Source of the DNA: Geodermatophilus obscurus
GTDB taxonomy: Bacteria > Actinomycetota > Actinomycetes > Mycobacteriales > Geodermatophilaceae
Assembly (NCBI RefSeq): GCF_900143215.1
Contig: NZ_FRDM01000006.1
Location: 62,001-126,000, forward strand
DNA length: 64,000 nt
Direction of reading: 5' to 3'
Positions 462 to 27,624 of the stretch are shown here, piece after piece. A model generated the notes under the pieces. That model searched no databases. It saw nothing but the letters and a program-made list of their open reading frames with translations, and was not told where the DNA came from. Every line of letters begins with the position of its first letter. The stretch's first letter is position 1. The translations under genes and the position numbers were made by a program.

Positions 462-1214
462 TCAGGCGCGGGCGCGCCGGGCGCGGGGGGCGTCGCCGGC
501 CCGCGAGCCCGACGGCGCCCGGGTGCGGCGGAAGGCGACCGGCTCGGGCGGGGTGTCCTCGACCAGCTGGGTGTCGAGGTAGGAGTCGCGGGACTGCTCG
601 ACGTGCAGGCGCATGGCGGCCGCGGCCTCGCCGGGCCGGCCGGCCGCTATCAGCTCGGCGACCTCGCGGTGCTCGGCCCACGCGCGCGGGGCGATGCTGC
701 TGACCAGGGGCGCGAAGAACCAGCGGCTGCGCTGGGAGAGCTGCTCGCCGAACTCCAGCAGGAGGTGGTTGCGCGCGCAGAGCATCACGGTGCGGTGGAA
801 GCGGGCGGTGTGCCCGGCCATCTGCTGGGCGGGGACGCCGCGCGCCCAGTCGGCGTCGGCCTCGTCGCAGATGCCCAGCAGCGCCGCGGCGTCCTCGGGC
901 GTGCAGCGCTGCGCGGCCAGCTCGGCTGCGGAGCGCTCGACCACCTCCCGGGCCTCGAAGAACTCCTCCACCTGCTGCCGGGTCGGCTGGTTGACGAACG
1001 CCCCCTGGCGCGGCCGCAGCGTGATCCAGCCGTCGCGGTGCAGCCGTTGCAGGGCCTCGCGCACCGGACCGCGGCTGACCCCGAGCTCGGCGGCGAGGCG
1101 CTCCTCGACCAGGTGGTCGCCGGGCCCGAGGGTCCGGGCGATGAGCAGCTCCTGCAGCCGCTCGTAGACGTGCTCGCGCAGCGGGAGGGCGTGGATGTGG
1201 TCGGCGCCGGACAC
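462..1214 (-). CDS. GntR-family transcriptional regulator, FadR/FCD type
   Basis: One-domain-plus-effector transcription factor of 250 aa. An N-terminal winged helix has its recognition helix around residues 41-60 (AELGVSRGPVREALQRL), followed by the wing GWITLRPRQGAFV. The all-helical C-terminal FCD domain (about 80-220) carries the usual histidines (GHTARFHRT), which in this family bind a metal and small carboxylates. The GTG start at 1214 has a G-rich ribosome-binding stretch eight bases upstream; no better start lies upstream in frame. It is divergent from the TAXI-TRAP operon starting at 1401 and is the obvious candidate regulator of it, with a short-chain acid as likely effector. The C-terminus has a basic, Ala/Arg-rich tail of no known role. 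Confidence 0.9.
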   Translation of the reverse strand: MSGADHIHALPLREHVYERLQELLIARTLGPGDHLVEERLAAELGVSRGPVREALQRLHRDGWITLRPRQGAFVNQPTRQQVEEFFEAREVVERSAAELAAQRCTPEDAAALLGICDEADADWARGVPAQQMAGHTARFHRTVMLCARNHLLLEFGEQLSQRSRWFFAPLVSSIAPRAWAEHREVAELIAAGRPGEAAAAMRLHVEQSRDSYLDTQLVEDTPPEPVAFRRTRAPSGSRAGDAPRARRARA

Positions 1215-1277
1215 GTTCGAACCCCCACTTCCCGCGTCGATGTGCAGCGGGATCGTTCCACGGATCGTTAACAGTAG

Positions 1278-1400: not shown

Positions 1401-2405
1401 ATGACCTCCAGCCCGATCCCCGCCCGGCCGACCCGCCGTCTCCTCGGCACCGCGCTGGCCGCAGCCCTCCTGCTCACCGCCTGTGGCGGGGGCGAGTCCG
1501 GCGGCGGCGCCGGGGGTGGTGAGGGCGCGCAGGCCGGCGGCCCCCTGACCTTCGCCACGGGTGGCACCGGCGGCGTCTACTACCCCTACGGCGGCGGCAT
1601 CGCGAACCTGCTCAGCTCGGAGCTGGAGGGCACGACGGTCACGGTCCAGGAGACCAACGCCTCGGTCGACAACATGCAGCTGCTGGCCTCGGGTCAGGCG
1701 CAGCTGGCGTTCGGCCTCGGCGACGTCGTCTCCGACGCGGCCAACGGTGAGAACACCTTCACCGAGGCGCTGCCCCTGTGCTCGCTCGGCAACATCTACA
1801 ACAACTTCACGCACGTCTTCACGACCGCGGCGACCGGGATCACCTCGATCGAGGACCTCCGCGGCAAGCGGGTGTCGCCCGGTGCGGTCGGCTCGGCCTC
1901 GGAGGTCACCGCCGACCGGATCATGGAGGCGGCCGGCCTCGACCCGCAGGCCGACATCGAGCGTGCCCAGCTGGGGGTCGCGGAGACCGTCGCGGCGATC
2001 CAGGACGGCACCGTCGACGCGGGCTTCTGGTCCGGCGGCCTGCCCACCGGCGCGATCGTCGAGCTGGCCAACAACGCCGATCTGGTGCTCATCCCGACCG
2101 CGGAGTACACCGACGCGATGGCCGAGCAGTACGGCGACTACTACTTCGCCGACGAGATCCCGGCCAACACGTACGAGGGCCAGACGGAGGCCTCGCCGCA
2201 GGTCGTCTCGCCGAACATCCTCGTCGCCCGGACGGACATGGACGAGCAGCTGCAGCAGGACATCACGCGGACGATCTTCGAGAACAAGGAGCAGCTGCTC
2301 ACCGTCCACCCGGCGGCCGAGGAGCTGGACCCGGCGACGGCCGGCGAGGTCGCCTTCATCGAGACCTGCCCCGGCGCGCAGGCCTACTTCGACTCGGTGG
2401 GCTGA
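1401..2405 (+). CDS. TAXI-family TRAP transporter solute-binding lipoprotein
   Basis: Extracytoplasmic substrate receptor of a TRAP transporter of the TAXI (NMT1-like) family. The ATG at 1401 has AGGAAGG ten bases upstream. The 334-aa product starts with a basic stretch, a hydrophobic core and the lipobox LLTAC with the lipidated cysteine at about residue 28, followed by a Gly/Ser-rich linker. The mature part begins with the family signature LTFATGGTGGVYYPYGGG and runs to a usual end for the family. It should deliver a carboxylate to the permease at 3004-5238. It is the first gene of an operon divergent from a GntR regulator. The substrate is not identified; the downstream hydroxy-acid enzymes suggest an organic acid. 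Confidence 0.93.
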   Translation: MTSSPIPARPTRRLLGTALAAALLLTACGGGESGGGAGGGEGAQAGGPLTFATGGTGGVYYPYGGGIANLLSSELEGTTVTVQETNASVDNMQLLASGQAQLAFGLGDVVSDAANGENTFTEALPLCSLGNIYNNFTHVFTTAATGITSIEDLRGKRVSPGAVGSASEVTADRIMEAAGLDPQADIERAQLGVAETVAAIQDGTVDAGFWSGGLPTGAIVELANNADLVLIPTAEYTDAMAEQYGDYYFADEIPANTYEGQTEASPQVVSPNILVARTDMDEQLQQDITRTIFENKEQLLTVHPAAEELDPATAGEVAFIETCPGAQAYFDSVG

Positions 2406-20215: not shown

Positions 20216-20896
20216 TCAGCCGCGCACCGGCAGACCGAGGGCCTGCGCCCACAGCCGGGTCAGCGCGGCGACCAGCCGCTCCTGCTCGAACTCGCCGTCG
20301 AGCACCAGCCAGTAGTGCACCAGCCCGTTGACCATCGCGACGAGCGCGTGCGCGCTGTACTCGGCGTCGAGGTCGGCGGCGACCAGGCCGTCGCGCTGCA
20401 ACTGCTCGATGCTGTGCCGCACCCGGCCGACGTTGCGCTCCCGGGCGGCCTGGCGCAGCGCCCGCACCTCCGGGTCGAAGGTGGTGACCTGCTCGAACAG
20501 CGCCATCAGCGCGGTGTTCTGCAGGTACGTGTCGACGAACCGGCGGTTGGCCCGGTCGATGCGGTGCACCGCGACCTCCTCCGGTGAGCCGTCCGGCGGG
20601 CCGGGCTCGCGGCGGGTGCCCATCGAGGCGTAGAGATCGTCCATCGTCTCGGCCACCAGCGCCCGGAAGACGGCGGTCTTGGAGCCGAAGTACGTGTAGA
20701 AGCTGCCGTGCGCGACGCCGGCCGCCGCCGAGATGTCGGTGACCCGGGCCGCCAGGAACCCGTCGCGCTCGAACACCTCGCGGGCGGCGGCCAGCAGCCG
20801 GGCCCGCATCCGGCGGCCGCGCTCGGTCGTCGGCAGGGCGGCCGGGGCGGCGCCGGCCGGGCCGCGCACCGCTTCCGGTGGTGGGGGCACGGGCAC
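20216..20896 (-). CDS. TetR-family transcriptional regulator
   Basis: A 226-aa TetR repressor. The N-terminal helix-turn-helix spans about residues 30-75, with ISAAAGVAHGSFYTYFGSKTAVFRAL as its core (the recognition helix is the part VAHGSFYTYF). The C-terminal helical domain is of the type that binds acyl-CoA or similar ligands. The GTG start at 20896 follows GGGAGGT. It is divergent from the acyl-CoA operon, and a 24-base near-palindrome (20911-20934) lies between them, so repression of both transcripts by one site is likely. A proline-rich extension of about 20 residues precedes the HTH. Confidence 0.9.
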   Translation of the reverse strand: MPVPPPPEAVRGPAGAAPAALPTTERGRRMRARLLAAAREVFERDGFLAARVTDISAAAGVAHGSFYTYFGSKTAVFRALVAETMDDLYASMGTRREPGPPDGSPEEVAVHRIDRANRRFVDTYLQNTALMALFEQVTTFDPEVRALRQAARERNVGRVRHSIEQLQRDGLVAADLDAEYSAHALVAMVNGLVHYWLVLDGEFEQERLVAALTRLWAQALGLPVRG

Positions 20897-20985: not shown

Positions 20986-23130
20986 ATGACCGTGCCGACG
21001 CCGGACCCGCACGACGACGGGCTGCAGGCGCTGCTGCGACCGCGGGGGATCGCGCTGCTCGGCATCTCGGGCCGGTCGGAGAACCTGATGTCCCGGCCGC
21101 TGCGCTATCTGGTCGAGCACGGCTACGACGGCGGCATCTATCCGGTCAACCCGAACTACGGGGAACTGGTCGGCCGCCGCTGCTACCCCGCGCTGGCCGA
21201 CGTCCCGGACCCGGTCGACCTGGTGCTCGTGCTCGTCGCCGCCGACCGGGTGGAGGACGCGATCCGGCAGGCCGCCGCGGTCGGCGCGCGGGCGGCGGTC
21301 GTCTACGCCTCCGGGTTCGCCGAGGTCGGTCCGGAGGGCGTGGCGCTGCAGCAGCGGCTGGCCGCGGTGGCACGGGAGACCGGCGTCCGCGTCGTCGGAC
21401 CCAACTGCCAGGGCTTCCTGTACACGCCCACCGGCGTGGTGGCCACCTTCACCGCCGCCGCCGACCGGCCGCTGACCTCCGGCAGCGGCGTCGCCTACGT
21501 CGGGCAGAGCGGCGCCGTCGGCGGCTCGGTGCTCGACCTGGCCACCGACATGGGCCTGGGCCTGGCGGCCTGGTTCAGCACCGGCAACCAGGCCGACCTC
21601 GACCTGACCGAGGTCTCGCTGCACCTGCTGGCCGACCCGACGGTGCGGGTGCTGATGCTCTACGTCGAGGCCACCGGCGACGGTGCGGCCTATGCCGAGC
21701 TGGCCCGCCGCGCGCAGCAGGCCGGCAAGTCCCTGGTCGTGCTGCGCTCGGGGCGCTCCAGCGCCGGCCGCCGGGCGGTGGCCAGCCACACCGGCTCGAT
21801 GCTCGGCGACGACGTCGCCTTCGTGCTCACCTCCCGGCGGTACGGCGTGGTGCTGGTCGACGACATCGACGAGCTGCTCGCGGTCGCGGCGGTGCTGGCC
21901 GCCGGGAAGCCGGCCGAGGGGCCGCGGGTCGCCGTCGTCACCACCTCCGGCGGGGCCGGCAGCCTCGCCGCCGACCAGTGCGAGGACGTCGGCCTGCACC
22001 TGCCCGAGCTGTCGGCGGCGACCCAGGCGCGGCTGCGCCCGCTGATACCGCCCTTCGGCGCGCTGGCCAACCCGGTCGACGTCACCGCTCAGCTGTTCAA
22101 CCGGGGGGCGCACGCCTTCGGGGACGTCTGCCGGATCATCGCCGAGGACGACGCCGTGGACGTCGTCGCCGTCCTGGTGACCATGGTCGTCGGGGAGGCC
22201 GGCGCCCGGCTCGCCGAGGACCTCGTCGCCACCGCGGCGAAGCTGCCCTGCCCGCTGCTGGTCGGCTGGATCGCCGGGCAGGAGCTGACCGTCGAGGGCC
22301 GCCGGGTGTTCCGCGAGGCCGGCGTCCCGGTGTTCGGCTCGGTCGGCGACCTCGCCCGCGTCGCCGCGCGGCTGGCCCCGCCGCGGCACCGGGGCACCCC
22401 GCCGCCGCTGCCGGCGGTGCCCGACGTCCCGGCCGCCGAGGTGCGCGCACTGCTCGAGGCGCCCGTGGTGGACGGCGCGGCGCTGCTGCGGTCGATCGGC
22501 ATCGCGCAGCCGGCGTCCACGCTGGTGACCAGCCCGGAGGCCGCGCGCGACGCGGTCGCCGCGCTGCCCTGCCCGGGCGTGCTCAAGCTCGCCGCCGCGG
22601 ACCTGGCGCACAAGAGCGAGGTCGGTGGCGTGCGGGTCGGCGTGGGCCCCGACGCGGCGGCGGCCGTCTTCACCGAGCTGCTCGACGCCGCGCGCCGGCA
22701 CCACGTCCCGGGCGTGGGGGGCGTGTACGTGCAGGAGCTCGTCCCGCCGGGCACCGAGCTGATCCTCGCGGTCACCGCCGGCCGCGACGGCTTCCCGCCG
22801 GTGGTGACCGTCGGCCTCGGCGGGGTGACCACCGAGCTGTACCGCGACCTCGCCTCGGCGCTCGCCCCGGTCTCACCGGAGGAGGCGTGGGCGATGCTGC
22901 GCGGCCTGCGCGCCTGGCCGCTGCTGGCCGGCTTCCGCGGCGCCGAGCCCGCCGACGTGCCGGCCGCGGTCGACGCGGTCGTCCGGCTGTCCCAGGCGGC
23001 GCTGGCGGCGGGCGACCGGCTGGCCGAGTTCGAGGTGAACCCGCTCATCGTCGCGCCGCGCGGGCGGGGGGCGACCGCCGTCGACGTCCTGGTGCGCACC
23101 ACCGGCTCGCGGGAGCCGATCGGCGAGTAG
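20986..23130 (+). CDS. Acyl-CoA synthetase (NDP-forming), acetate-CoA ligase family
   Basis: A 714-aa fused alpha-beta type ligase that would make an acyl-CoA from a carboxylate, CoA and ATP with ADP release, by way of a phosphohistidine. Order of domains: CoA-binding Rossmann domain (about 15-140, IALLGISGR, PNCQGF), succinyl-CoA-ligase-like domains with the active histidine in ASHTGSMLGDD, and a C-terminal ATP-grasp domain (about 500-710, LKLAAADLAHKSEVGGVRVG). GAGGAGG lies upstream of the ATG at 20986. First gene of the operon that ends with the UGSC selenoprotein and its two partner proteins; it probably activates the pathway's acid. It ends with TAG and no coding signal follows. Confidence 0.9.
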   Translation: MTVPTPDPHDDGLQALLRPRGIALLGISGRSENLMSRPLRYLVEHGYDGGIYPVNPNYGELVGRRCYPALADVPDPVDLVLVLVAADRVEDAIRQAAAVGARAAVVYASGFAEVGPEGVALQQRLAAVARETGVRVVGPNCQGFLYTPTGVVATFTAAADRPLTSGSGVAYVGQSGAVGGSVLDLATDMGLGLAAWFSTGNQADLDLTEVSLHLLADPTVRVLMLYVEATGDGAAYAELARRAQQAGKSLVVLRSGRSSAGRRAVASHTGSMLGDDVAFVLTSRRYGVVLVDDIDELLAVAAVLAAGKPAEGPRVAVVTTSGGAGSLAADQCEDVGLHLPELSAATQARLRPLIPPFGALANPVDVTAQLFNRGAHAFGDVCRIIAEDDAVDVVAVLVTMVVGEAGARLAEDLVATAAKLPCPLLVGWIAGQELTVEGRRVFREAGVPVFGSVGDLARVAARLAPPRHRGTPPPLPAVPDVPAAEVRALLEAPVVDGAALLRSIGIAQPASTLVTSPEAARDAVAALPCPGVLKLAAADLAHKSEVGGVRVGVGPDAAAAVFTELLDAARRHHVPGVGGVYVQELVPPGTELILAVTAGRDGFPPVVTVGLGGVTTELYRDLASALAPVSPEEAWAMLRGLRAWPLLAGFRGAEPADVPAAVDAVVRLSQAALAAGDRLAEFEVNPLIVAPRGRGATAVDVLVRTTGSREPIGE

Positions 23131-23180
23131 GCATCCTCAGCGGCACACCCCGGACCCCAGCAGAGAGGCAGGACACCCCC

Positions 23181-23918
23181 GTGGGACAGATCCAGTTGGA
23201 GCGGCACGGCGGCGTCGCCGTGTTCACGGTCGACTCGCCCGAGGTCAAGAACGGGCTCACCCCGGAGATGGGGCTGCAGCTGTCGGAGCTGTGCGACGAG
23301 GTGGACGCCGACCCGGCGATCGGCGCGGCCGTCGTCCGGGGCGCGGGCGGCACCTTCTGCTCCGGCGCCGACCGCCGGCGCTGGACGCCGGGCAGCGACC
23401 AGGCCGAGGACAAGACGTACAAGGAGCTCGGCGCGGTCTACACCGCCTTCCGCCGGGTGGGCACGCTGCAGGTGCCGACCATCGCCGCGGTGCGCGGCGC
23501 CGCGGTCGGCGCGGGGATCAACCTGGCGCTGTCCACCGACCTGCGCATCGTGTCCGAGAGCGCCCGGCTGATGGCCGGCTTCCTGCGGATCGGCCTGCAC
23601 CCCGGCGGCGGCTACTTCACCATCAGCAGCCGGACGGCGGGCCGCGAGGCCACCGCCGCAATGGGTCTGTTCAGCGAGGAGATCGACGGCGTGCGCGCCG
23701 CCGAGATCGGCCTGGCCTGGAAGGCCGTCCCCGATGACCAGGTCGAGGACCTCGCCCTGGAGCTCGCCGGCCGCGCCGCCAAGGACCCGGAGCTGGCCCG
23801 CGAGGCGGTCCGCTCCTTCCGCACCGAGGCCGGCCCGCCCGGGATCGGCTGGGAGGCCGCGCTGCACTTCGAGCGGGCGACCCAGATGTGGTCGCAGCGG
23901 CGGCGCGAGACCGCCTGA
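23181..23918 (+). CDS. Enoyl-CoA hydratase/isomerase family protein
   Basis: A 245-aa crotonase-fold enzyme. The oxyanion-hole segments are GTFCSGADRRRW and AAVRGAAVGAGINLAL; ALSTDLRI follows, as in typical hydratases. At the first catalytic Glu position (after GAAVGAG) the family Glu cannot be assigned with confidence, and the second falls near LHPGGGYF, so the precise reaction (hydration, isomerisation or hydrolysis) is open. The GTG start at 23181 has GAGAGGCAGGA upstream. It lies between the ligase and two acyl-CoA dehydrogenases, consistent with a beta-oxidation-like sequence. Confidence 0.85.
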   Translation: MGQIQLERHGGVAVFTVDSPEVKNGLTPEMGLQLSELCDEVDADPAIGAAVVRGAGGTFCSGADRRRWTPGSDQAEDKTYKELGAVYTAFRRVGTLQVPTIAAVRGAAVGAGINLALSTDLRIVSESARLMAGFLRIGLHPGGGYFTISSRTAGREATAAMGLFSEEIDGVRAAEIGLAWKAVPDDQVEDLALELAGRAAKDPELAREAVRSFRTEAGPPGIGWEAALHFERATQMWSQRRRETA

Positions 23919-23981: not shown

Positions 23982-25118
23982 GTGCAGTTCGCGCCGACCG
24001 TGCTCACCCCGGCCGAGGAGGCACTGCGCGCCGAGGTGCGCGAGTTCCTCGCCGCCGAGCTCCCCGCCGGGCACCGGCCGGCGCTCGGGTTCGCCGGCCG
24101 GCACGATCCGGAGTTCTCCCGCACGCTGGCCGAGCGCGGCTGGGTCGGCATGGCGATCCCGCCCCGGTACGGCGGGCACGGGCGCAGCGCCGTCGACCGG
24201 TTCCTCGTCGCCGAGGAGCTGCTCGCCGCCGGTGCTCCCATCGGCGCGCACTTCGTCGCCGACCGGCAGACCGCGCCGGCGCTGCTGCACTTCGGCACCG
24301 AGGAGCAGCGGCAGCGGTTCCTGCCGGGCATTGCCGCCGGTGAGGTCTACTTCTCCCTCGGCATGAGCGAGCCGGATTCCGGCTCCGACCTCGCCTCGGT
24401 GCGCACGAGGGCGACCCGGGTCGAGGGCGGCTGGACGGTCACCGGCACCAAGGTGTGGACCAGCGAGGCCCACCGCAACCACTTCTTCGCCGTGCTCTGC
24501 CGGACCTCTCCGGTCGAGGAGGGCCGCAAGCACGCCGGCCTCTCCCAGCTGATCGTCGACCTGTCCGCACCGGGCGTGCGCATCTCACCGATCCCGTACC
24601 TCGACGGCAGCCACCACTTCAACGAGGTGGCCCTGGAGGACGTGTTCGTGCCCGACGACATGGTGCTCGGCGAGCTCGGCTCCGGCTGGCAGCAGGTGAC
24701 CAGCGAGCTGGCCTACGAGCGCAGCGGCCCCGACCGGTGGCTGTCCACCTTCCCGGTGCTGCGCGAGTGGCTGCGCGAGCGCGGCGCAGCGGTCTCCGGC
24801 GAGGAGGCCGTCGTCCTCGGCCGGCTCGCGGCCCGGTTCCGGGCCATCCGGCAGCTGTCGCTGTCGGTGGCCCGCGCGCTCGACGGCGGCAGCGCACCGG
24901 TGGTCGAGGCGGCGCTGGTCAAGGACGTCGGCACCCGCTTCGAGCAGGACCTGGTCGAGGCGCTGCGCGAGGCCGCGGAGACCGAGCTCGACCAGGGCTC
25001 GCGCTCGCTGTTCCCGTCGCTGCTCGCCGAGGCGGTGCTGACCTCGCCGTCGTACACGCTGCGCGGCGGCACCACCGAGATCCTCCGCTCCGTCGCCGCG
25101 AAGGGACTGGCTGCATGA
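23982..25118 (+). CDS. Acyl-CoA dehydrogenase (subunit 1)
   Basis: FAD-dependent acyl-CoA dehydrogenase of 378 aa. It shows the FAD/substrate motif SLGMSEPDSGSDLASVRTRA, then GTKVWTSEAHRNHFF, and the C-terminal LRGGTTEILRS. The GTG start at 23982 has GAGGAGGG upstream. The stop overlaps the next gene (ATGA), whose product is a shorter divergent acyl-CoA dehydrogenase. Actinobacterial pairs of this type often form alpha2beta2 complexes in which only one subunit has the full active site; that is likely here, with this one as the complete subunit. Confidence 0.9.
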   Translation: MQFAPTVLTPAEEALRAEVREFLAAELPAGHRPALGFAGRHDPEFSRTLAERGWVGMAIPPRYGGHGRSAVDRFLVAEELLAAGAPIGAHFVADRQTAPALLHFGTEEQRQRFLPGIAAGEVYFSLGMSEPDSGSDLASVRTRATRVEGGWTVTGTKVWTSEAHRNHFFAVLCRTSPVEEGRKHAGLSQLIVDLSAPGVRISPIPYLDGSHHFNEVALEDVFVPDDMVLGELGSGWQQVTSELAYERSGPDRWLSTFPVLREWLRERGAAVSGEEAVVLGRLAARFRAIRQLSLSVARALDGGSAPVVEAALVKDVGTRFEQDLVEALREAAETELDQGSRSLFPSLLAEAVLTSPSYTLRGGTTEILRSVAAKGLAA

Positions 25119-26212
25119 GCGACGACCGCACCGTGCTGACCGAGGTCGCGACCGGCCTGTTCCGCGACCTGTGCACCCCCGGGGACGTCGTCGCCGCCGA
25201 GGCGACCGGGTGGAGCGAGCGGCTCTGGTCGGCGCTCACCGAGTCCGGCTTCCCGCTGGTGTCGGTGCCCGAGGAGGCCGGCGGCTCCGGCGGGGATGTC
25301 GCCGACGCCTGCGCGCTGCTCACCGTCGCCGGCCGCTTCGCCGCCCCCGCGCCGCTGGCCGAGACCGGGCTGCTCGGCGGCTGGGCGCTGGCCGCGGCCG
25401 GGCTCGAGCTGCCCGAGGGCCCGCTGTCGGTGGCCGTCGGCGCGCCCGGGGACGCCGTCGAGCTCGCCGGCCGGCGGTTCTCCGCGCGGCTGTCCCGGGT
25501 GCCGTGGGGCGGGCGCAGCGACCGGGTGGTCGCCCTCGCCGGGAGCGGCGGGCAGCGGTTCGTCGTCTCCGCGCCCACCGCAGCCGCGACCGTCACGAAC
25601 GGCCGCAACCTCGCCGCCGAGCCGCGCGACACCCTGGTGTGGGACGACGTCGGGCTGCCCGACGACGCGTTCGCGCCCGCCCCGCCCGGGGTGGACGGCG
25701 CGGCGCTGCGGTTGCGCGGCGCGCTGGCCCGCGCAGCACTGATCGCCGGGGCGCTGGCGCGGGTGGCCGAGCTGACCGTCCGCTACACCGGCGAGCGGCA
25801 GCAGTTCGGCCGCCCGGTCGCCCGGTTCCAGGCGGTGCAGGCGCACCTGGTCACCATCGCCGAGGAGGCGGAGCTGGCCGGGCTCGCCGTCTCGGTGGCC
25901 GCGCTGAACGCGCGCCCCGACCCGTCCTTCCTCGACGTCGCGGCAGCGAAGGCGGCGGCCGGCGAGGCGGCGACGATCGCGGCGCGCGCGTCCCACCAGG
26001 CGCACGGCGCGATCGGCATGACCAAGGAGTACGAGCTCGGCCAGCTCTCCCGCCGGCTGTGGTCGTGGCGCGACGAGTTCGGCAGCGAGCGGTACTGGAG
26101 CCGGGAGCTGGGCCACCGGCTGGCCGCCGCGGGCGCCGACGCGCTGTGGCCGAGCATCTCGACGGGGCTGGTCAGCGAGCCGGCGAGCTCACCCGAGGGC
26201 AGCTTCGCATGA
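25115..26212 (+). CDS. Acyl-CoA dehydrogenase (subunit 2, divergent)
   Basis: A 365-aa acyl-CoA dehydrogenase family protein. The N-terminal helical part has PEEAGGSGGDVADACAL. The middle beta-domain is degenerate, without the normal SEPxxGSD motif, and the C-terminal helices carry TGERQQFGRPVARFQAVQAH and HQAHGAIGMTKEY. The missing middle motif points to a non-catalytic or half-active partner of the preceding subunit. ATGA overlaps on both sides show translational coupling with it and with the flavoprotein-UGSC gene. Confidence 0.88.
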   Translation: MSDDRTVLTEVATGLFRDLCTPGDVVAAEATGWSERLWSALTESGFPLVSVPEEAGGSGGDVADACALLTVAGRFAAPAPLAETGLLGGWALAAAGLELPEGPLSVAVGAPGDAVELAGRRFSARLSRVPWGGRSDRVVALAGSGGQRFVVSAPTAAATVTNGRNLAAEPRDTLVWDDVGLPDDAFAPAPPGVDGAALRLRGALARAALIAGALARVAELTVRYTGERQQFGRPVARFQAVQAHLVTIAEEAELAGLAVSVAALNARPDPSFLDVAAAKAAAGEAATIAARASHQAHGAIGMTKEYELGQLSRRLWSWRDEFGSERYWSRELGHRLAAAGADALWPSISTGLVSEPASSPEGSFA

Positions 26213-27624
26213 GCACCGACTGGGACGTCGCCGTCGTGGGCGCCGGGATCGCCGGGCTGACCGCCGCGCGGGTCGCCGCCGACCGGGGTCTGCGGGTGGT
26301 CGCCTACGACCGGCTGACCCCCGGCGGTCAGCTGGTCAACCTGACCGCGCTGCACGACCACCCGGGCGGCACCGGTCCGGAGCTGGTGTCGGCGCTGACC
26401 GCCGCGGCCGAGGCCGCCGGCGTGCGGATCGGCTACGCCGAGGTCACCCGGGTGCACCCGGGCTCGGCGGTGCGGCTGGAGACCGGCGACGGCGAGGTCA
26501 CCGCCGGGGTGGTCGTCGTCGCGGCCGGGCTCGGCCCCGGGCGGCTCGGGCTGCCGGCGGAGGAGGCGCTGGTCGGGCGCGGGATCTCCACCTGCGCCGG
26601 GTGCGACGGCCCGCTGTTCCGCGGGCGCGCGGTCGCCGTGGTCGGCGAGGACGAGTGGACGGCGGAGGAGGCGCTCGAGCTGGCCGGCTGGGCGTCGGCG
26701 GTGACCGTGCTGGTGCCGGGCCCGCCGCGCTGGTCGCCGGAGCGGGCGGAGCGGCTGGCGGCCGCCGGGACGGTCGAGGTGCTGACCGGTGCGGCGGTGA
26801 CCGCGCTGCGCGGCGAGGGCGTGCTGTCCGGCGTCGTCGTCCGCACCGCCGACGGGGAGCGTGACCTGCCGGTCGCCGGGCTGTTCCCGTTCGTGGACCG
26901 CCGCGGGCCCGAGGGCCTGGTCGACGGGCTGGCCGCCGACGAGCACGGCCGGCTGGTCGGCGCCGGGAACGTGCTGGTCGCGGGTGACGCCCGGGCCGGT
27001 GCGGAGCAGTCGCTGGCCGCCGCCGAGGCCGACGGACGCGCCGCCGGGGAGGCCGCGGTCGCCGCCCTGGCGGCGACCGCCGGGTCGCTGCGGATCGTCG
27101 ACCCGACGTACGGCCTGCCGCCGGAGGACGACGCCGGGCCGGTGGAGGCCGCCGGCAGCACGGCGACGTGGACCGACGTCGCGCTGTTCACCAACTCCAA
27201 GCCGAACGCGACCGAGCTGCTGCGCGGGCTGGGGCAGCGGCTGCAGGCGCACTGGGAGCTGCCGGAGCTGGGCTTCGCGGCCAAGGAGAGCGCCTCGGTC
27301 GCGGCGGACAAGGACACCATCGACTGGCTGTCGCAGCGCTTCAAGATGGTGCTGGTGGCGGTCGGCGACTAGGGCTCGTGCTCGTCGTGGAGTCTCCACG
27401 ACTCGGTGGAACTGGAGAAGCGTGGCGTCGTCGCGCCGCTGGTGGTGACCGAGACGTTCCTGCCGCTGGTGCAGGCGCAGGCCCGGGCGCGGCGGGTGCG
27501 GCCCCGGCTGGTCGTCGTCCCGCACCCCGTGGGCGGGCTGAACGAAGCCGAGCTGGCCGGCCGGATCGAGGGCGCGGCCGCCGAGCTGCTGCGGATGGCC
27601 GACGAGGCGAGGGGGCTGTCGTGA
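26209..27624 (+). CDS. Thioredoxin-reductase-like flavoprotein fused to UGSC selenoprotein domain, selenocysteine encoded by UAG
   Basis: Conventional calling would stop at TAG 27370-27372 (387 aa), but the frame stays open for another 83 codons to TGA 27622-27624, which overlaps the next gene by GTGA. Reading the TAG as Sec gives a 471-aa protein with Sec388. Residues 1 to about 300 resemble thioredoxin reductase: FAD motif VVGAGIAG (9-16), redox pair STCAGCDGPLFRG (Cys129, Cys132). The NADPH loop is degenerate (VVGEDEWTAEEA instead of GxGxxA). From about residue 318 (WTDVALFTNSKPNATELLRGLG) the chain is a UGSC domain, with VGD-U-GSCSSW at the active site and VVVPHPVGGL near the end. The UGSC family is a known selenoprotein family of unknown function. 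UAG as Sec codon is known in Geodermatophilus and Blastococcus. A hairpin follows the codon (27384-27402). A sequencing error from TGC is the alternative. Confidence 0.88.
27370..27402 (+). promoter_or_regulatory. UAG selenocysteine codon and bSECIS-like hairpin
   Basis: TAG at 27370-27372 is followed by eleven bases and then the perfect 8-bp stem GTCGTGGA (27384-27391) / TCCACGAC (27395-27402) with the loop GTC (27392-27394). The loop begins 20 bases after the codon; bacterial SECIS loops lie about 16-37 bases downstream. The apical GAGUCUC region shares GUCU with the E. coli fdhF element. The hairpin is inside the coding sequence, as bacterial SECIS elements must be. Confidence 0.75.

Follow-up and report, generated by a model that had tools for sequence, protein, structure and literature searches.

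Organization of the locus

The stretch of DNA analyzed here (the window) comprises 64,000 nucleotides from the soil bacterium Geodermatophilus obscurus (contig NZ_FRDM01000006.1, positions 62,001 to 126,000), and our subject is a forward-strand gene at window positions 26209–27624 whose frame contains a TAG codon. On translation, 387 codons are followed by the TAG (27370–27372), 83 more codons and a TGA stop (27622–27624). With the UAG read as selenocysteine (Sec), the gene would encode a selenoprotein of 471 residues (26209–27621), and its sequence identifies the predicted product as a fusion of a flavoprotein resembling thioredoxin reductase (TrxR; residues 1–293, 26209–27087) with a UGSC selenoprotein (residues 294–471, 27088–27621). 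The first domain was delimited by TIGR01292, the fit of a model to structure 5vt3 and motif columns, and the second by PF24696, alignment and start sites. The TAG is codon 388, at the U of the U-G-S-C motif, and Cys391 is the proposed partner of the Sec. The upstream gene overlaps the start of the fusion gene as ATGA at 26209, and the TGA stop overlaps, as GTGA, the GTG start at 27621 of the next gene, here called P1.

The UGSC profile of Pfam (PF24696) matches residues 296–462 with 121.6 bits (cut-off 25). Since this match lies on both sides of the TAG, the frame is more than a chance opening. The thioredoxin-disulfide reductase profile TIGR01292 matches residues 5–279 (6.5e-43), under its equivalog cut-off. 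A first-pass annotation of the window had described 83 protein-like codons beyond the TAG, the position of that codon at the U of U-G-S-C, the overlap of the TGA with the following start and a fusion to a thioredoxin-reductase-like module. These descriptions are borne out, the first by translation, PF24696, 18 orthologues and the substitution ratios given below, and the last by TIGR01292 and a model with the TrxR fold. ARAGORN also calls a tRNA-Ala within the reductase frame (26723–26816), which is probably a false positive.

Decoding machinery

The UAG at 27370–27372 is almost certainly decoded as Sec by a tRNA-Sec with a CUA anticodon, with delivery by SelB at a hairpin downstream of the codon. 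The genome (5.24 Mb in 112 contigs) was searched for the components required. A gene at C48:309560–309651 matches the Rfam tRNA-Sec family with 65.1 bits (cut-off 47) and has the anticodon CTA. It is flanked by selD on one side and by selA-selB on the other; selA, selB and selD score 408.9, 278.2 and 382.8 bits, all exceeding their NCBIfam cut-offs of 267.9, 242.25 and 125. Both the CUA tRNA-Sec and these three genes had been named in the first-pass annotation as what a genome search should find, and its reading of the UAG as Sec is thus supported by the genomic checks. A second locus above the Rfam tRNA-Sec cut-off (48.2 bits) was rejected as a tRNA-Ser by ARAGORN. TAG also occupies the Sec site in two further genes of the genome, which encode a stand-alone UGSC protein on C52 and a formate dehydrogenase (FDH) on C27.

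The first-pass annotation had also stated that UAG-encoded Sec was reported for Geodermatophilus and Blastococcus, and this is indeed prior knowledge. In the parts covered, PMC5330540 credits Mukai et al. (2016) with the CUA tRNA-Sec and the UAG-Sec FDH and UGSC-motif proteins of this family, and adds one AhpC. The present case shares with that system the CUA tRNA-Sec, UAG at the Sec sites of FDH and UGSC proteins, and a hairpin of the bacterial Sec insertion sequence (bSECIS) type. The same passages do not mention a fusion to a reductase.

Codon and anticodon across genomes

Among 112 genomes of the Geodermatophilaceae, 54 contain UGSC matches, 95 in total. A single TAG is present in 72 of these (19 read as fusions, the remainder not each inspected), 23 are stop-free, and none has TGA or TAA. 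A sample of the phylum (396 genomes, own excluded from the counts, at most eight candidates scored per genome) gave 44 UGSC matches in 28 genomes, 34 with TGA, 10 stop-free (two of them below the family cut-off) and none with TAG. Twenty loci were fetched as fusion candidates, and two of them (L092 and L101) were dropped as other UGSC genes, with the Cys codons TGT and TGC. The remaining 18 are orthologous fusions in other genomes with TAG at the identical codon, giving 19 of 19 with that of the window. The alignment of homologues at codon 388 that the first-pass annotation called for thus finds UAG within the lineage, UGA outside it, and Cys in two UGSC genes of the family.

In a comparison set of 45 loci, 43 carry a UGSC gene. 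The codon is TAG in all 15 loci from Geodermatophilus, Blastococcus and Modestobacter and TGA in all 28 from outside the Geodermatophilaceae. The latter are mostly Alphaproteobacteria, by title or by our assignment of their genera and families, with two titled Proteobacteria, one Gammaproteobacteria metagenome-assembled genome (MAG), one Streptosporangiales MAG and one Alicyclobacillus, whose locus has a second UGSC gene, also with TGA. As the 15 Geodermatophilaceae loci are apparently the same as 15 of the 18 orthologues, they are not additional evidence.

A tRNA-Sec was detected in 108 of the 112 family genomes. Anticodons were read, out of these 108, for the genome of the window and for sets of 30, 4 and 20 loci; CUA was found in the first and in 22/30, 4/4 and 20/20, and UCA in 8/30. 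All 19 fusion-bearing genomes are among those with a CUA tRNA-Sec. For the 28 TGA loci, 20 genomes were searched and a tRNA-Sec was found in 19, with UCA in every case. The eight UCA cases in the family represent seven genomes of three other genera (G066, G068–G070 and G072–G074; loci L053–L058 and L061) and an extra gene in G058. Because these seven genomes have a UCA tRNA-Sec, the anticodon switch lies inside the family.

G058 belongs to the same genus and carries, besides its CUA tRNA-Sec (L268), another one with UCA, in L103 (G058:C17:1–20000; positions 1169–1263, minus strand). The latter stands in a stretch of lower G+C content (about 59–65% per kb, compared with 69–77% around it) between transposase genes, beside a carboxymuconolactone-decarboxylase/AhpD-like gene (1579–2157, plus strand) with an in-frame TGA at a CxxU site. 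Only in G058, among the 112 family genomes, was a match carrying TGA found; the 396-genome sample gave one distant match, also with TGA. As judged from these genes, G058 may use both UAG and UGA for Sec.

Hairpin and selection on the coding sequence

A predicted hairpin of the bSECIS type, GUCGUGGA-GUC-UCCACGAC (27384–27402, forward strand), lies directly 3′ of the UAG codon. It has eight base pairs and a GUC loop, with G23 and U24 counted from the U of UAG (27392–27393). G23 and U24 matter for SelB, and E. coli fdhF has both at the same positions. We compared 59 distinct sequences from 77 segments picked by protein motif (30 TAG and 47 TGA, including paralogues and orthologues). Held in a fixed register, 94.9% of the pairs are standard, compared with 12–55% when one arm is slid by 1–3 bases. 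G23-U24 is present in all 59, and changes on both sides occur at pairs 19–29, 20–28 and 21–27.

In the 19 fusion genes, synonymous substitution is depressed over this segment. Per site it amounts to 0.054 in codons +1 to +14 and to 0.306 after them; the 90 codons ahead of the TAG have 0.372, and the reductase part has 0.489. The serine at +7 is encoded by AGT in all 19 genes. Of the columns with an invariant residue, 7 of 10 at +1 to +13 use a single codon, compared with 21 of 142 upstream and 9 of 38 further downstream. The ratio of nonsynonymous to synonymous change (dN/dS) is 0.42 for the codons after the TAG, 0.39 for the TrxR part and 0.45 for the 90 codons before the TAG. Downstream of the TAG, the sequence thus changes as a protein-coding region would, under purifying selection.

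The fusion and its reductase domain

The two halves of the fusion occur as separate genes in other bacteria. Of the 28 loci outside the Geodermatophilaceae, 12 have a trxR-like gene immediately upstream of ugsC, and L189 has one about 0.7 kb upstream. Most of the separate ugsC genes start with M-R-I-V-N-P-(T/S)-F-G; in alignment, this start corresponds to residue 294 onward of the fusion, placing the joint near residue 293/294. As the same two proteins are encoded by adjacent separate genes in several Alphaproteobacteria, the fusion constitutes a Rosetta-stone link between them.

Motifs were compared in 18 rows, half of them fusions (9 of the 19) and half separate trxR-like genes (9), with the NADPH motifs as defined in passages of PMC6262447. 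The FAD motif GxGxAG and the CxxC (C129/C132) are retained in all 18, and GGGxSA and HRRxxxR are absent from all 18. In place of the GGGxSA of ordinary enzymes, the sequence of the fusions is G-(D/E)-D-(E/D)-W-T, and C129, C132 and W150 are identical in 19/19. The domain therefore shares with the low-molecular-weight thioredoxin reductases the fold, the FAD motif and the CxxC, and differs from them by the loss of both NADPH motifs and the presence of a C-terminal selenoprotein domain. Passages of PMC6262447 describe thioredoxin reductases without the NADPH-coordinating HRRxxxR that use F420 or NADH, and passages of PMC12796991 describe ferredoxin-dependent thioredoxin reductases (FFTRs) that cannot use NADPH; as far as these sources were covered, NADPH is unused or its coordination motif is absent in such enzymes.

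An AlphaFold model of the fusion has a mean pLDDT of 86.4 and a pTM of 0.72, and its structure matches covered residues 1–293. It superposes onto 5vt3 with a Z of 33.1 over 286 residues. The root-mean-square deviation (rmsd) is 1.9–2.9 to the ten best-ranked TrxR structures, including 5mh4 (FR conformation) and 1f6m (a complex of TrxR with thioredoxin, Trx), and about 5–7 to most of the other entries among the matches listed. A search of plasmids returned six records with short TrxR-type matches.

The UGSC domain

The UGSC domain shares with the known UGSC family (PF24696/NF041046; "UGSC-containing protein" of the GOS data) the Pfam match, the UxxC motif and the P1 neighbor. It differs in standing behind a TrxR-like domain and in scoring under the NF041046 cut-off. 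A different UGSC fusion, with "Unknown_1", is described in a passage of PMC2398784. By sequence, no solved relative of the UGSC domain was found. In our reading of its secondary structure, the modeled domain is a five-stranded α/β arrangement, Rossmann-like, with the Sec after the third strand and no evident Trx fold.

A distant similarity may exist to GrdB/PrdB (PF07355), the selenoprotein B of glycine, sarcosine, betaine and D-proline reductases. In the third profile comparison, which set 30 UGSC proteins against 9 GRDB proteins extended beyond the Sec, hhalign gave an E of 2.8e-4 and a score of 35.3 with Sec aligned on Sec; the controls gave at most 24.0 (100 column shuffles) and 13.0 (reversed alignment). 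Besides this weak profile similarity and the coincidence of the Sec residues, the two share a common downstream pattern. They differ in the lack of a Pfam-level match and in the reductase, which is fused here, and perhaps in P1, which showed no resemblance to the genes of eight GrdB loci. These loci probably hold GrdE, to judge by the look of one open reading frame. The similarity to GrdB is suggestive and does not amount to membership.

Neighboring genes

P1 (27621–28646, forward strand) encodes 341 residues, and P2 (28639–29673, forward strand) is its paralogue, the two matching at 47% across 176 residues in the N-terminal half. P1 is downstream of UGSC in 43/43 UGSC loci of the 45-locus set and near it in 16 of the 17 other UGSC loci fetched from the family; P2 is present in 40 of the 43. 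Together they appear to form a protein family, as yet unnamed, that accompanies UGSC genes and in which numerous Cys and His residues are invariant. In P1, H106, C108, C174, H209, H214 and H252 are identical in all 29 aligned sequences and may bind a metal or a cluster. Pfam gave no match for the P1 of the window and three scattered weak ones over the 29 members (E 0.026 to 0.11). No solved relative was found by sequence (best E 0.37), and structural resemblance was weak: the top Foldseek match, a fumarate hydratase, had an E of 4.9e-3, and no VIA match exceeded a Z of 6.3. Since no clear Pfam, sequence or structural relative emerged, we assign P1 to no enzyme class. Profile comparison of P1 with UGSC revealed no relation. 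Several genomes (G087, G091, G092 and G106) have two to four UGSC matches, some of them stop-free and a few kb apart, and in L117 (G087:C1) they are accompanied by two P1 genes.

Upstream of the fusion gene, and also on the forward strand, are acyl-CoA dehydrogenase 2 (25115–26212), acyl-CoA dehydrogenase 1 (23982–25118), an enoyl-CoA hydratase/isomerase (23169–23918, start approximate) and an acyl-CoA ligase of the CoA-binding/ATP-grasp type (20986–23130); a TetR-family regulator (20216–20896, reverse strand) is divergent. The two dehydrogenases are operon neighbors of the fusion. The ligase and the hydratase are beside it in 15/15 Geodermatophilaceae loci, and both dehydrogenases in 14, being absent from L165. 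The hydratase is matched at 89–99% in those 15 loci and weakly (28–35%) in eight of 48 others. Weak acyl-CoA dehydrogenase matches (29–43%) were found near UGSC outside the family in L168, L171, L173, L176 and L192, and within it in L105, L106 and L108. The acyl-CoA operon context proposed in the first-pass annotation thus stands as an arrangement fixed in the Geodermatophilaceae; elsewhere, it is weak or missing, and the most conserved neighbors are P1 and P2.

Proposed mechanism

Taken as a whole, the observations are best explained by decoding of the UAG as Sec in a fusion of a TrxR-like domain to a UGSC domain, a reading to which we assign a probability of about 85%. In the mechanism that we propose, Sec388 would act on a substrate or a partner protein (P1 or P2), by chemistry that may resemble that of the substrate-activating subunit B of glycine and proline reductases, and would end as a Sec388–Cys391 selenenyl-sulfide. 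C129/C132 of the fused reductase domain would then re-reduce this bond in cis, with FAD receiving its electrons not from canonical NADPH but from another donor, such as ferredoxin, NADH or F420H2. With respect to the sequence features described, we consider re-reduction of this bond by the fused reductase with a non-NADPH donor plausible, at somewhat under even odds. In the Geodermatophilaceae, the operon would connect the fusion with the degradation of some acyl-CoA compound. More broadly, and quite tentatively, [TrxR-like]-UGSC-P1-P2 may represent an unnamed Se-dependent reductase system of several phyla that is distantly related to glycine/proline reductase, with a fused, NADPH-independent flavoprotein and, in the Geodermatophilaceae, UAG-encoded Sec and an acyl-CoA pathway.

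Several observations count against parts of this interpretation. The NCBIfam equivalog model UGSC_fam (NF041046) scores 104.1 of the required 125 bits; with PF24696 above its cut-off, the fusion is a UGSC family member by Pfam and not an NCBIfam equivalog. No trxR match was found at 15 of the 28 distant UGSC loci, some of which are cut by contig ends, so a reductase neighbor is not obligatory. The placement of the domains in the model is only moderately confident, with the pTM of 0.72 and residues 293–309 below 50. The ferredoxin-dependent 5j60, the sole solved enzyme of its type among the structures listed, ranks 50th (Z 24.4), and its rmsd of 9.4 is the worst of the best 50; the solved FFTRs are not closest to the fusion by sequence or structure. 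The model thus supports a TrxR fold and not a particular donor. For the same reason, the likeness of the model to FR-conformation TrxR structures is no argument for an enzyme of the ferredoxin type, and a non-NADPH donor is argued from the loss of the NADPH motifs. For the hairpin, the double changes may represent few events between subfamilies with differing residues, the outer pairs are incompletely kept (15–33 in 40/59 and 16–32 in 54/59), and single-sequence folding z-scores are modest (−1.75, −0.13 and −0.43, depending on window length). As, in addition, no SECIS-type family of Rfam matched at this site, the support for the hairpin is comparative. The UGSC-GRDB alignment described above has an hhalign probability of 41% and was the third of three profile comparisons, the first two being unconvincing (E 0.15 and 0.01); the low E was reached only with the enlarged UGSC set and the extended GRDB sequences. 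An hmmscan of 17 UGSC members gave no PF07355 match up to an E of 10, and the P1 profile matched no open reading frame of at least 120 residues in the eight GrdB loci.

Alternative explanations

If the decoding is as described, the enzyme could instead be a general selenoprotein of thiol or peroxide defense, its reductase making it a self-contained thioredoxin-like system. The UxxC motif and the reductase partner do resemble thiol oxidoreductases, and a passage of PMC2398784 assumed a Trx-like fold and a redox role for UGSC proteins. The modeled UGSC domain, however, appears Rossmann-like rather than Trx-like, and the steady presence of P1, along with that of the acyl-CoA genes, argues for a pathway. 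We regard this alternative as rather unlikely.

The UAG could also be a true stop that ends a product of 387 residues, with the downstream frame residual or separately translated. Within the window, UAG apparently still serves as a normal stop: of 34 genes chosen by codon bias, 3 end in TAG and 31 in TGA. Nevertheless, all 19 fusion genes have TAG and none TGA or TAA at this codon, the codons beyond it are under purifying selection, the Pfam UGSC match spans it, and the choice between TAG and TGA tracks the anticodon of tRNA-Sec, all of which make a true stop very improbable. That the UAG stands for pyrrolysine, or is read by some ordinary amber suppressor, might be supposed from ARAGORN, which labels the CTA-anticodon gene tRNA-Pyl. 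This gene is assigned to tRNA-Sec by Rfam, well above the cut-off, and sits between selD and selA-selB; no pyrrolysyl-tRNA synthetase above cut-off was found in the genome, the best match to the PylS C-terminal model being 25.6 of 178.15 bits; and relatives have TGA at this codon, or Cys in the case of two other UGSC genes from the family. We therefore consider this reading extremely unlikely as well. A sequencing error or pseudogene, with TGC or TGT misread as TAG, found no support and is practically refuted by the identical TAG in 19 assemblies, by the two other genes in this genome that also have TAG for their Sec and by the conserved hairpin.

Conclusions

Decoding of UAG as Sec in the Geodermatophilaceae was known; the fusion architecture and its linkage to the neighboring genes are new as far as the literature was searched. 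The first-pass annotation had called the fusion undescribed, and passages of the literature searched contain no description of a TrxR-UGSC fusion, so that the statement stands within that literature. The fusion, with its counterpart in neighboring separate genes elsewhere among bacteria, points to a likely electron partner of the UGSC protein, and P1 and P2 are likely working partners. Together, the fusion and its neighbors make the function testable with a single purified protein. The locus also offers a clean natural example of a switch of the Sec codon, in which the same motif and hairpin are used with UAG or UGA according to the anticodon of the tRNA.

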